In this document: positions 11,683-15,137 of the stretch, one piece after another
Numbering within the stretch: position 1 is the stretch's first letter
Layout: every line of letters begins with the position of its first letter
IMG/VR virus record: IMGVR_UViG_3300021335_000001
Location: 1-36,087 of that record
Origin: a virus
DNA length: 36,087 bases
Strand: one strand, 5' to 3'
Position numbers and translations under genes: made by a program
Notes under the pieces: model-generated
Database searches by the model: none
What the model was told of the DNA's origin: nothing
What the model saw: only the letters and a program-made list of their open reading frames with translations

Positions 11683-11965
11683 GATGTCGGGTAAAGAGAT
11701 TAATACCATGCTGCGCATGTATGAACGTGGCGCAACCGCTATAGAGATAGGTAAGAAAATAGGACGCTCACCCAGCGTGGTTAGCTCAACGCTTAACCGC
11801 ATGAGAAACCAGCTAACATCGCGCGACTTGCCACCAGAGACAAAAGCAAAGATGCGTGAGATCGAACAAGAGTTTATTGACGATTATAAAAAAGCCCGCG
11901 CTGAAGGTGAAAAACCGATGGGTGCGATGGCAAAGTTATTCGCCCTCATCAGTCCACGACACTGA
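11672..11965 (+). CDS. HTH DNA-binding protein (97 aa)
   Basis: ATG 11672 has GGGAG 6 bases upstream and overlaps the HNH stop by 11 bases. A resolvase/sigma-like helix-turn-helix (MLRMYERGATAIEIGKKIGR then SPSVVSSTLNRMRN, residues about 13-46) is followed by an acidic helical tail. It is probably a regulator of early transcription. The last 30 bases overlap the 3' end of the opposite-strand rusA gene. Confidence 0.7.
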   Translation: MGNRMSGKEINTMLRMYERGATAIEIGKKIGRSPSVVSSTLNRMRNQLTSRDLPPETKAKMREIEQEFIDDYKKARAEGEKPMGAMAKLFALISPRH

Positions 11966-12373
11966 TATGTAAAGCACAGGCCCACGATCAGGGTGGCAGT
12001 AGGTCTTCCTGACCCGCAGGCTAGTGATCTGTCGGTCATCAGCATAAATCGTATTATTCAATCCATCCCCAACTATTTTTGCGATGTTATCACAATCAGG
12101 GGTACTCATAGGACTGATGGCCCCGTATTCAGCTTCCAGCTTTTTTTTCTTTGACCATGACTTTGGGATATCCATGAACGCGATGATGTCCAAAGCTATC
12201 GGCCTGTCGGTCTGTTCGATGTTGTGCTTTGCCATAGCCGCCCATGCAGCCGCGTGAATGCGCCTCTCATACTCTTTTGTTTTCTGTGGGGTGTAAGTGT
12301 GACCCACCTTAGTAAAGCGCGGTCTACCCTTGCCTATTGGCTGTCCTGTTATTTCTAGTTCAATCTTATACAT
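11936..12373 (-). CDS. rusA: Holliday-junction resolvase, RusA family (145 aa)
   Basis: The metal-binding active-site segment TPDCDNIAKIVGDGLNNTIY (91-110, with Asp93 and Asp95) followed by ADDRQI (Asp112/113) is diagnostic for RusA. The N-terminus GQPIGKGRPRFTKVGHTYTP is also typical. The protein resolves four-way junctions before packaging. Unlike its neighbours it is encoded on the minus strand, and its 3' end overlaps the convergent HTH gene by 30 bases. No strong promoter of its own is visible; a TTGCAA-rich AT stretch at 12421-12446 is the only candidate. Confidence 0.92.
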   Translation of the reverse strand: MYKIELEITGQPIGKGRPRFTKVGHTYTPQKTKEYERRIHAAAWAAMAKHNIEQTDRPIALDIIAFMDIPKSWSKKKKLEAEYGAISPMSTPDCDNIAKIVGDGLNNTIYADDRQITSLRVRKTYCHPDRGPVLYISVSWTDEGE

Positions 12374-12440
12374 GCCCGATCCTCTGTGTGGGAACTGCTG
12401 TCAGTCGTTACATTTTTTTATTTTTTTTGCAAATACCCCC

Positions 12441-12469
12441 TTGCAATGTAGTACATGTGCGACTATATA
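12441..12469 (+). promoter_or_regulatory. Early/middle promoter, copy 1 of a duplicated leader
   Basis: -35 TTGCAA (12441-12446), 17-bp spacer, -10 TATATA (12464-12469). The spacer ends tgcgac. The leader carries gaaaggaac before ATG 12502. The same layout recurs at 13632. A second TTGCAA lies 14 bp upstream (12427-12432). Confidence 0.62.
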
Positions 12470-12501
12470 TAATGTATAAGCAACGAAGAAAGGAACATCA
12501 G

Positions 12502-12750
12502 ATGCCAAGCCTAAACCCAAAATTCGAAACAAAATGGACACGCGCCAAAAAAATGTTCAACGCTAAAATGCGCGAATTTAACAATGATGGGTCAAAAGCC
12601 ATTCAATACTTTGTTGACGAAGCTGCCCGTCAAAAAAAATTGGCAAAACAAAATCCTGCAAGCGTTGCCTACTGCCGCGCAAGTTTCGCTGACAACGCGG
12701 CTACATACGGCATCAACCTAGCATTTGGCATCGACAAAGCTGCAAAATAA
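12502..12750 (+). CDS. Early small basic protein (82 aa)
   Basis: The start is ATG 12502, preceded by gaaaggaac. The product is a helical, Lys/Ala-rich protein (start MPSLNPKFETKWTRAKKMFN) with no recognised domain. It is the first gene after promoter copy 1 and is followed at once by a UUCG hairpin. A high-expression small protein with a stabilised transcript end would fit; possible roles are DNA binding or host takeover. Function unknown. Confidence 0.72.
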   Translation: MPSLNPKFETKWTRAKKMFNAKMREFNNDGSKAIQYFVDEAARQKKLAKQNPASVAYCRASFADNAATYGINLAFGIDKAAK

Positions 12751-12754
12751 TCAC

Positions 12755-12768
12755 GGGGCTTCGGCCCC
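12755..12768 (+). terminator. UUCG-capped GC hairpin
   Basis: ggggc-ttcg-gcccc forms a 5-bp all-GC stem with an extra-stable UUCG loop, 4 bases after the stop. No T-run follows, so it may be a weak terminator or a 3'-end stabiliser that lowers downstream expression relative to the 82-aa gene. Confidence 0.5.
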
Positions 12769-12788
12769 ACCAACATATGAGGTATCCC

Positions 12789-13499
12789 ATGAAAAACGTA
12801 ATTCCAAACCCAGTTAACAACGGCACCACAAAAGCTGATCGCAACCGCTACTGTGGCCCAGCAGTCATCAGTTCACTTACTGGCATGACTACTGCCGAAG
12901 CAGCCCGCCTACTGCGTTATGTATCTGGCAAACGCGCAATCACTGGTGTTTATACCCGCCACCTTTTGCAAGCGTTGAAGATGTGCGGTATCCACATCAC
13001 CAACAAAACCTTCGACCTGTCAGACAACCCCACCCTGATCCGCTTCATCAACAGCGACGACAGATCGCCTTGCGTCACACACCTGATCGTAGCGGGCAAT
13101 CACTTTCAGCTAGTGCGCGACAATAACTTTGTCTGCGGTAAAACCAAAGACTTGGTGTCATTCAAAGACAGCCGCGTAAAACGCCGCGCCCGCGTCAAGC
13201 AAGCGTTCGAACTTGTGACCGATGGCATCGTGATCCCTGACGAAGCCCGCAAGCCAGTGCGCAAGCCGCAGAACAACGAAAGCCGCGCCAAGTGCCAAAA
13301 ACTAGCCAACCAGCTAGGCATCAGCATTGACGTGACATACAACGTCTATGGCTGGAACTACTGCATCTGTTCCGAAGAAGATTACAGCTACTTGGGTGTG
13401 ATCGATGGCTCTAACTGCGATGATTGGGATGAGGTGTATGCCAAGCTCCAACAGATCGAAGAATATGAGATCATGGAAATGGTCAAGTCGATAGCGTGA
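12789..13499 (+). CDS. C39/papain-like cysteine-protease-fold protein (236 aa)
   Basis: ATG 12789 has GAGG 6 bases upstream; an in-frame ATG at 12777 lacks one. Residues 20-120 show a Cys-His layout. RYCGPAVISSLTGMTTAEAA (Cys22) begins a helix as in C39-like peptidases. GVYTRHLLQALKMCGI is the second helix. VTHLIVAGNHFQLVRDNNFV carries His105, with Asp111/Asn112 as third member. The usual upstream glutamine is not evident. The C-terminal ~85 residues (YNVYGWNYCICSEEDYSYLG, then acidic helices) form an unrecognised extra domain. It could cleave a host or phage protein or bind a peptide. Its stop overlaps the 31-aa ORF as TGATG. Confidence 0.6.
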   Translation: MKNVIPNPVNNGTTKADRNRYCGPAVISSLTGMTTAEAARLLRYVSGKRAITGVYTRHLLQALKMCGIHITNKTFDLSDNPTLIRFINSDDRSPCVTHLIVAGNHFQLVRDNNFVCGKTKDLVSFKDSRVKRRARVKQAFELVTDGIVIPDEARKPVRKPQNNESRAKCQKLANQLGISIDVTYNVYGWNYCICSEEDYSYLGVIDGSNCDDWDEVYAKLQQIEEYEIMEMVKSIA

Positions 13500-13594
13500 T
13501 GTGGGGGTCTAACCTGCGTGAGTTCATTCAGGCCATGTTTAATTACGACATGGTCTGGATGCCCGAAGCACCCGATGATGAGCCGCCATTTTAA
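13499..13594 (+). CDS. 31-aa microprotein ending in an SSB-like acidic tip
   Basis: ATG 13499 overlaps the stop of the protease-fold gene as TGATG. The reading frame runs 31 codons: MWGSNLREFIQAMFNYDMVW, then MPEAPDDEPPF. The N-terminal two thirds could form an amphipathic helix. The C-terminal DDEPPF closely resembles the SSB interaction tip (DDEIPF in this phage's own ssb). Translation is supported by coupling and by the ORF filling the space before the next promoter. Function is unknown. Confidence 0.55.
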   Translation: MWGSNLREFIQAMFNYDMVWMPEAPDDEPPF

Positions 13595-13631
13595 AGAGTA
13601 AGAAAAAATCAAGTTTAGTAGCATATAGCTA

Positions 13632-13660
13632 TTGCAATGTCTCACGTATGCGACTATATA
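13632..13660 (+). promoter_or_regulatory. Early/middle promoter, copy 2 of a duplicated leader
   Basis: -35 TTGCAA (13632-13637), 17-bp spacer, -10 TATATA (13655-13660). It shares ttgcaatgt, tgcgactatata and gaaaggaac with copy 1 at the same distances to within 2 bases (ATG 59 versus 61 bases from the -35). It drives the chain of small genes from 13691. Confidence 0.65.
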
Positions 13661-13690
13661 ATAGTTATAGCAAAGAGAAAGGAACCAGCT

Positions 13691-13981
13691 ATGTCTTATA
13701 ATTGTGCAAAGTGTAATGGAACTGGTGAGATCGCGGCCCACAGAAACGTGCTTGGTGGCGTTTGCTTTAAGTGCAACGGCACAGGCAAGCAGGCCCATAA
13801 ACCTGCCGCTAAATCTAAGAAGTACCTATGCAAATATGATGGCGTTGGTTTGTTCACAAAGTCAGCGCGAAGTGAAGCGCAAGCATTACGCATGGCAGTA
13901 GCACATTGGCACTGCAATCCAGACGCGCCTGCAATGGTAAACATCACCGAAGATCAAATCACAGTAGAGGAATTAGTATAA
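13691..13981 (+). CDS. DnaJ-type zinc-finger protein (96 aa)
   Basis: Two CxxCNGTG motifs (CAKCNGTG near residue 5 and CFKCNGTG near residue 28) form one zinc site as in the DnaJ central domain. A basic linker and a C-terminal ~45-residue domain rich in Ala and His (SARSEAQALRMAVAHWHC) follow. It is first in the unit driven by promoter copy 2, preceded by gaaaggaac. Small proteins with a DnaJ-type finger may bind unfolded protein or act as adaptors; a role here is not known. The stop overlaps the next ATG as TAATG. Confidence 0.75.
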   Translation: MSYNCAKCNGTGEIAAHRNVLGGVCFKCNGTGKQAHKPAAKSKKYLCKYDGVGLFTKSARSEAQALRMAVAHWHCNPDAPAMVNITEDQITVEELV

Positions 13982-14229
13982 TGCGCGGACGTTTACCACA
14001 TCACTTTAATATGAACCTCAACGTAAAAGGTTCTCAGTTACCATTAGTCTTTGAGGGCGTATTGGACATGGACGAAGGTTACTTTGAGCCAACAGATGTT
14101 TACCTGCAAAGCGCCCGTGGGCGTGTAGAGGGTAAAGAAGATTACAAGTTGTCAGAAACAGTGTTTAACGAAATCATGTCTGGCAAGTACGATGAAGATA
14201 TCAACGATGCAGCGTGGGGGTCAGCATAA
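13981..14229 (+). CDS. Early hypothetical protein (82 aa)
   Basis: It starts in the TAATG at 13979-13983 and ends in another TAATG at 14227-14231. The protein has a beta-rich N-terminal half (NMNLNVKGSQLPLVFEGVLD) and an acidic C-terminal half (YKLSETVFNEIMSGKYDEDI). No family is recognised. Its setting is a tightly coupled chain of small early genes. Confidence 0.7.
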   Translation: MRGRLPHHFNMNLNVKGSQLPLVFEGVLDMDEGYFEPTDVYLQSARGRVEGKEDYKLSETVFNEIMSGKYDEDINDAAWGSA

Positions 14230-14330
14230 TGCAATATGGCAAGTTAACTTGGGAAGATGTAGTTATTGGGATCGTCTTTGCGGGGGCGGTCATCGTTTGG
14301 ACAACAGGAACAGTGAAAGGGTGGTGGTAA
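14229..14330 (+). CDS. 33-aa single-span membrane microprotein
   Basis: ATG 14229 lies in a TAATG overlap with the preceding stop, and its own TAA overlaps the next ATG at 14330. The product starts MQYGKLTWED, has one hydrophobic helix (VVIGIVFAGAVIVWTTGTV) and ends KGWW. Double coupling and a clean membrane span support a real gene. It may modulate the host membrane or superinfection; this is inference. Confidence 0.6.
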   Translation: MQYGKLTWEDVVIGIVFAGAVIVWTTGTVKGWW

Positions 14331-14533
14331 TGGAAACGTGGCATCAAATGTTACGAAGACATCAACGTGAAAAAATAGAAGCATTGGAAAGTCTCAATCA
14401 ATCTGGATACACACAATCAGAGGCCGCAAAGATAATGGGCATGGGACTTTCAGCATTGAACAATCAGGTAATCAGATCAGGCATACACTGGAAAGTTAAA
14501 AGACAAGGGCAGCGTAAAAGAAATGACAGATAA
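14330..14533 (+). CDS. HTH DNA-binding protein (67 aa)
   Basis: The start METWHQMLRRHQREKIEALE is coupled to the previous stop (TAATG). A helix-turn-helix of the homeodomain-like type (LNQSGYTQSEAAKIMGMGLS, then ALNNQVIRSGIHW) fills the middle, and the tail is basic. It is probably a small regulator of early or late transcription. It overlaps the following gene by 11 bases. Confidence 0.72.
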   Translation: METWHQMLRRHQREKIEALESLNQSGYTQSEAAKIMGMGLSALNNQVIRSGIHWKVKRQGQRKRNDR

Positions 14534-14696
14534 TCAACTAGCGAAATACATCGAACACACAATCAAAGACTGCATCGCAGCACGGGCAAACCCCACCGCA
14601 GCTTTGACGCACATAGATGCGATACATTCACGCATGATCCATGTGCTAGATAAATTGAAAGAAGAACGCGCAGACGTAACTGGCGCACCAGTATAA
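14523..14696 (+). CDS. Hypothetical protein (57 aa)
   Basis: ATG 14523 overlaps the preceding gene by 11 bases and the frame ends at TAA 14694-14696. The product is a compact helical protein (MTDNQLAKYIEHTIKDCIAA onwards, ending EERADVTGAPV). It fills the otherwise empty gap between the HTH gene and the 118-aa gene. No family is recognised. Confidence 0.6.
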   Translation: MTDNQLAKYIEHTIKDCIAARANPTAALTHIDAIHSRMIHVLDKLKEERADVTGAPV

Positions 14697-14705
14697 GAGG
14701 GAAAA

Positions 14706-15062
14706 ATGGTAAACTATTTTGATACTTTGACGCGGGTATTAAAACGTCCACCAACAGAAAAAGAACTTGGCACATTCATGGAAATGAAGCGCGAACAAGA
14801 GGGGTGGAAATCGGGCAAGCTGAAAATAAAAGAGAAAGAGGAAAAGCAACAACTGATGCGCGAACCAAAGCAACCAAAGAAAATAAACGACAGATCACTT
14901 TACCGCTGGCCCAGACGGGCATCGATGCGGGCGAAGATGGTAAACCGTATGTTAAAGGATAACATAACGATCAAGAATATCGCTTATTATATCGACACAA
15001 CGGAAAGCCAAGTAATGGCAGATATTTCTACGTGGGATTTGCCACAAGATAAAAACAAGTGA
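14706..15062 (+). CDS. Basic HTH-like protein (118 aa)
   Basis: GAGGG lies 6 bases upstream of ATG 14706. The protein is highly charged in the middle (KLKIKEKEEKQQLMREPKQP) with a C-terminal helix-turn-helix-like segment (MLKDNITIKNIAYYIDTTES, then QVMADISTW). It is probably DNA-binding. It is the last clear gene of the small-gene chain before a spacer with an 8-bp inverted repeat. Confidence 0.68.
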   Translation: MVNYFDTLTRVLKRPPTEKELGTFMEMKREQEGWKSGKLKIKEKEEKQQLMREPKQPKKINDRSLYRWPRRASMRAKMVNRMLKDNITIKNIAYYIDTTESQVMADISTWDLPQDKNK

Positions 15063-15066
15063 TCGT

Positions 15067-15137
15067 GTGGGCGGCGCTATAGTGTCGGGATATAAGCTGG
15101 GGATGACCAACAAAAACGATGGTATCAAACCGCCCAC
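15067..15137. other. Long-loop inverted repeat in early intergenic spacer
   Basis: gtgggcgg (15067-15074) and ccgcccac (15130-15137) are perfect inverted copies 55 bases apart. The spacer 15063-15170 contains only very short GTG-initiated frames. It could form an RNA hairpin or bind a protein; no T-run marks it as a terminator. Confidence 0.35.

Follow-up and report, generated by a model that had tools for sequence, protein, structure and literature searches.

A 31-codon gene ending in an SSB-like tip

The stretch of viral DNA analyzed here (36,087 nucleotides, hereafter the window) raises the question of whether a frame of only 31 codons encodes a free-standing copy of the C-terminal tip of single-stranded DNA-binding protein (SSB) and, if so, which proteins such a tip would engage. 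The frame (positions 13499–13594, + strand) runs from ATG to TAA and translates to MWGSNLREFIQAMFNYDMVWMPEAPDDEPPF, 31 residues followed by the stop codon; its coordinates and translation agree with a sequence-only reading that had described a TGATG-coupled ORF ending in PEAPDDEPPF. The ATG overlaps the TGA of the preceding gene within this TGATG (13497–13501, +), an arrangement suggestive of translational coupling that is also present in the relative at L001; the upstream sequence differs in the other loci. Within the window, frames ending in [DE][DE]xPF are limited to this microprotein and the phage SSB, and no frame with such an ending occurred in 100 windows randomized by a third-order Markov model.

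In bacteria, SSB tips organize both replication and repair, and the pockets that receive them are antibacterial targets. The phage SSB (10102–10476, +), which belongs to the OB-fold family (Pfam SSB, E 3e-11), ends in PAAMDDEIPF, so that the DDEIPF end previously assigned to it stands. Among 31 Rhodobacteraceae SSB genes, 21 end in DDEIPF, six in DDDIPF, and one in DDNIPF, the other three being not properly read, and the SSBs of both assemblies that carry the microprotein gene end in DLDDEIPF. The window tail, DDEPPF, differs from the host DDEIPF solely by Pro in place of Ile at position −3, and apart from this position the proposed resemblance to an SSB tip holds for host and phage SSB ends alike. 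The microprotein is not itself a member of the OB-fold SSB family (PF00436), being 31 residues long and giving no Pfam SSB match. Like SSB (DDDIPF or DDEIPF), it terminates in acidic residues and then x-P-F, but it lacks the OB-fold ssDNA-binding domain, its tip being instead connected to a conserved helix through a short linker of fixed length. T7-type phage SSBs (gp2.5 and Enc34 ORF6; PMC5686142) likewise use acidic C-terminal tails for docking during phage replication, although these tails are attached to an SSB domain and the likeness considered here is one of acidity.

Relatives of the microprotein

Relatives were sought in viral contigs first with DNA patterns drawn from the body of the gene only, which ignore the tail, and afterward with peptide patterns based on the body. 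Besides the window, 50 viral contigs and two Rhodobacteraceae assemblies carry the gene, giving an intact set of 53 loci with 40 distinct DNA sequences and 33 distinct proteins. Because the query used to confirm relatives contained the tail, the body-only pattern scan was repeated unfiltered; it returned 36 stretches, of which 26 belong to the family and without exception have the tail, and the other 10 are unrelated. Earlier unfiltered body scans gave the same picture, and these filter-free scans rule out a search bias toward tailed copies. One further copy, in a Cobavirinae-like contig (L105:5660–5896), is frame-broken, possibly by a sequencing indel or by decay of the gene.

Searches of Pfam, PHROG, NCBIfam, and the PDB gave no significant profile match to the microprotein. 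A resemblance to the N terminus of INCENP was sub-threshold and confined to the helix, and we treat it as chance. Among the cultivated phages of INPHARED, three family variants used as queries found no microprotein match, and a fourth query gave only a match at E=10, which is not credible. The microprotein was also not found in the regions of CRP-5, ICBM2, and CRP-901 that were read, although these phages are relatives in that region. A search of 395 host-family genomes for prophage copies returned one good match, the already known SB2 assembly, and two weak partial matches lying inside long reading frames.

The tail is the most conserved segment

In all 53 intact copies the protein ends in an acidic residue followed by x-(P/V/C)-P-F, with the stop codon directly after. 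Pro30 and Phe31 are invariant and residue 27 is always Asp or Glu across the 53 loci (40 distinct DNAs), whereas residue 28 is Glu or Asp in 34 of the 40 distinct coding sequences. The codons vary beneath this constancy: all four Pro codons occur at position 30, both Phe codons at position 31, and all three stop codons directly after it. Mean pairwise identity is 78% for the tail (residues 27–31), 63% for residues 6–22, and 16% for the linker (residues 23–26). The corresponding pN/pS values are 0.19 for the tail (codons 27–31, DEPPF, preceded by a further Asp at residue 26; 13577–13591, +), 0.48 for residues 2–22, and 0.86 for the linker, and these are descriptive, the synonymous sites being near saturation and the sequences related. 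Between the window and its closest relative (L001/L108), the four codons 26–29 (D-D-E-P) have each changed synonymously and none non-synonymously. By these measures the tail is the most strongly constrained part of the microprotein.

The start codon is kept as well, as ATG (or GTG/TTG) directly 5′ of a conserved Trp or Tyr in most variants, despite the DNA 5′ of the start being unrelated between lineages. Thus the start, frame, and tail, on whose conservation in related phages the sequence-only reading had rested its case, are all retained, together with the synonymous bias over the ORF, and this pattern of substitution argues that the ORF is a real gene under selection. The tail shares with SSB tips the acidic cluster and terminal P-F (53/53 intact loci) but not an Ile or similar aliphatic residue kept at −3, where the 40 distinct sequences have Pro (31), Val (8), or Cys (1) and never Ile. 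That no residue ever follows Phe31 is explained by the literature on SSB-tip docking (PMC5872125).

A candidate two-site ligand of host SSB partners

The body (codons 2–22; 13502–13564, +) follows the pattern [WY]xxxLRxF(I/L)xA(L/M)(F/H)xxD(I/M)VWxP, with a predicted helix at residues 6–14 and then an extended DIVWxP segment. Among distinct sequences, Leu6, Asp17, Val19, and Pro22 are invariant, Trp20 is present in 39 of 40, and Phe9 is near-invariant. The linker (codons 23–26; 13565–13576, +) is hypervariable in sequence, with no indels, and its length is the same in all 33 distinct proteins. The proposal of a free tip on a helical peptide is therefore upheld insofar as a helix precedes an extended tail, but "free tip" is too simple, because the body is strikingly conserved too and the linker length is fixed. 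The microprotein is better described as a bipartite ligand or, alternatively, as a mini-fold.

On balance, we lean toward a reading, drawn from sequence comparison, in which this conserved phage microprotein serves as an SSB C-terminal tip in its own right, docking on host SSB partners, whose docking sites it would probably occupy. Through its tip and the free carboxylate of the terminal Phe, the microprotein would enter the basic and hydrophobic pocket that receives SSB in one or a few host genome-maintenance proteins, candidates being proteins of the RecO, RecQ, RadD, RecG, PriA, primase, chi, or RNase HI type, whereas the conserved helix and DIVWxP would make a second contact adding affinity and selectivity. 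The partner enzyme would thereby lose its coupling to host SSB, being either blocked or diverted. Because all of the features read by the pocket are present except Ile at −3, and the body is conserved in addition, we infer a bipartite ligand that may displace SSB from one or a few host partners. Such a two-site ligand is feasible, given that a second hot spot adjoining the tip pocket allowed chemists to raise ligand affinity (PMC10143822). In the same study, replacing Asp by Glu beside Ile-Pro-Phe was mildly favorable for ExoI and RecO, and the family's usual Glu28 parallels this change. Counting against docking is the occurrence of Pro, Val, or Cys, never the Ile of SSB, at −3; counting against a flexible tether are the linker length, which never varies, and the high constraint on the body.

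Gene neighborhoods and an adapter reading

The neighborhoods of the microprotein gene are of several types. In the window type, a tipped SSB lies ∼3 kb upstream; a second type consists of contigs with a RadD-like helicase and a VRR-nuclease, akin to the cultivated Roseobacter phage CRP-901; in Cobavirinae-like contigs, whose closest cultivated matches are CRP-5 and Lentibacter phage ICBM2, the microprotein directly precedes a primase/helicase; and the remaining neighborhoods have no recognizable shared gene. The common factor of the loci appears to be Rhodobacteraceae hosts, judging from the two assemblies and the relatives of cultivated roseophages. A host target is favored because the gene occurs in several unrelated phage backgrounds that seemingly share only the host group.

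The same neighborhoods bear on an alternative that we regard as unlikely yet deserving of weight, in which the body would bind a phage protein of replication or recombination, to which the tip would recruit a host SSB partner, supplying an SSB tail in trans. The conservation of the body, which implies a defined partner, is consistent with such an adapter, as are the position directly before the primase/helicase in the Cobavirinae-like contigs and the scarcity of Pfam SSB, found in two of 18 further microprotein records and missing from 16, many of these records being fragments. On the other hand, the neighborhoods compared have no single phage protein shared by all, and an SSB tipped with DDEIPF is already encoded by the window phage and by two relatives. 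Clear tips in near-complete records are otherwise those of the SSB, the RadD-like helicase, and an unclassified 160-residue protein ending in LDDEIPF; some records of 34–38 kb with the microprotein have no other clear tip.

Predicted structure and a mini-fold reading

Without an alignment, AlphaFold predicted a helix at residues 2–19 (pLDDT 73); with the 33-member alignment, the helix was confined to residues 6–14, beyond which the chain was extended and confidently modeled (mean pLDDT 88 overall and 92 for residues 21–30). The confident tail of the latter model could represent a self-packed mini-fold. We take as the main rival a self-folded mini-protein whose PPF end would pack on its own helix and Trp20, as in a Trp-cage, and whose likeness to SSB would be coincidental, a reading that we nonetheless find rather improbable. 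It would account for the constant linker length (33/33 distinct proteins), the invariant or near-invariant body residues, and the confidence of the alignment-based model, but it leaves unexplained the conserved acidic residues 27–28 and a stop codon that always falls right after Phe. A PDB fold search gave no meaningful match (best E 6), and the tip is met again on a phage helicase unrelated to the microprotein. A self-folded protein could, moreover, still dock through its tip.

Tipped helicases and the remaining alternatives

That helicase is a RadD-like SF2 enzyme of 551–553 residues ending in an SSB-like tip in nine loci and in CRP-901, and on sequence grounds we regard the shared tip as an independent recurrence. 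The endings are FGDEIPF, LEDIPF, and FEEIPF (L122:5243–6904, +; eight other loci; and L179, which is CRP-901 gp20). Like the microprotein, these helicases, CRP-901 gp20 included, are non-SSB phage proteins with an SSB tip, but the microprotein lacks any enzymatic domain. Because E. coli RadD is itself an SSB-tip binder, a tipped RadD-like enzyme suggests self-regulation or the recruitment of partners independently of SSB.

The tip might also serve as an allosteric activator, stimulating RadD, RecQ, or a similar helicase to the benefit of phage replication rather than inhibiting it. SSB-tip peptides alone do alter such proteins, stimulating the ATPase of E. coli RadD and unwinding by RecQ and changing RecO–RecR assembly (PMC7913777; PMC10238739), and some of the phages with the microprotein have their own RadD-like helicase. 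A RadD-like gene was, however, not seen in the DNA examined at most loci, the window included, and we consider activation a remote prospect. Finally, a spurious ORF or chance ending, which the mere 31 codons and the lack of a match in family libraries might suggest, is rejected as vanishingly improbable given the frame, length, and tail kept in 53 loci, near-saturated synonymous change, and zero chance occurrences of the ending in randomized windows.

Relation to known systems

The earlier remark that no described phage microprotein of this kind was known agrees with the open-access literature, in which we found no report of a phage-encoded free mimic of the SSB tip, and with the family libraries. 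The SSB-tip motif and phage mimicry are both known, but an SSB tip encoded as a gene of its own is apparently without precedent; to our knowledge, the microprotein would be the first. It resembles the synthetic two-site SSB C-terminal mimetics directed against ExoI and RecO (PMC10143822) in combining a tip with a second contact beside the pocket, but those are man-made octapeptides, whereas the microprotein is a gene-encoded 31-mer with a putative second contact. If docking by the microprotein is true, it would be a natural counterpart of two-site peptide inhibitors designed as antibacterials, phages would take over the SSB hub by copying its docking signal, and a ready-made 31-residue ligand would be at hand for finding the partner that matters in infection. 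Small host-takeover proteins of phages are similarly tiny, with inferred binding to host enzymes and sometimes mimicry (TraR), but a review of these proteins mentions no SSB mimic (PMC11323111).

More tentatively, and with somewhat less than even confidence, we propose that several marine phage lineages share a dedicated 31-residue SSB-tail decoy that would seize, through tip and helix, a specific host SSB partner or an SSB-sensing defense enzyme. Phage SSBs trigger the Hachiman, Nhi, Retron-Eco8, AbpAB, and Hna defense systems (PMC13381803), and an SSB-like decoy could therefore also bear on immunity, although this is speculation.

Flanking and accompanying features

The gene upstream of the microprotein (12777–13499, +) encodes 240 residues with no assigned family and accompanies the microprotein in 10 loci, not always adjacent to it. 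Its earlier description as a (cysteine) protease fold is unsupported, searches of Pfam, PHROGs, and the PDB having given no match. Within this gene, positions 12789–12907 are 77% identical to Roseobacter phage CRP-901, the only similarity to cultivated-phage DNA found for 12400–15100. A 27-bp promoter-like repeat, GCAATGTNNNACRTRTGCGACTATATA, occurs 5′ of the block that ends with the microprotein (12443–12469, +) and again just 3′ of the microprotein, before the next block (13634–13660, +); no such copies are expected by chance, and the interval between them closes with the microprotein gene. Farther upstream, an ORF on the strand opposite to the surrounding early genes (11936–12373, −) has by eye the look of a RusA-type resolvase. 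In a phage record without Pfam SSB, the 160-residue protein mentioned above (L193:5192–5674, −) ends in KPLDDEIPF, has no Pfam family, and is possibly an unrecognized phage ssDNA-binding protein.
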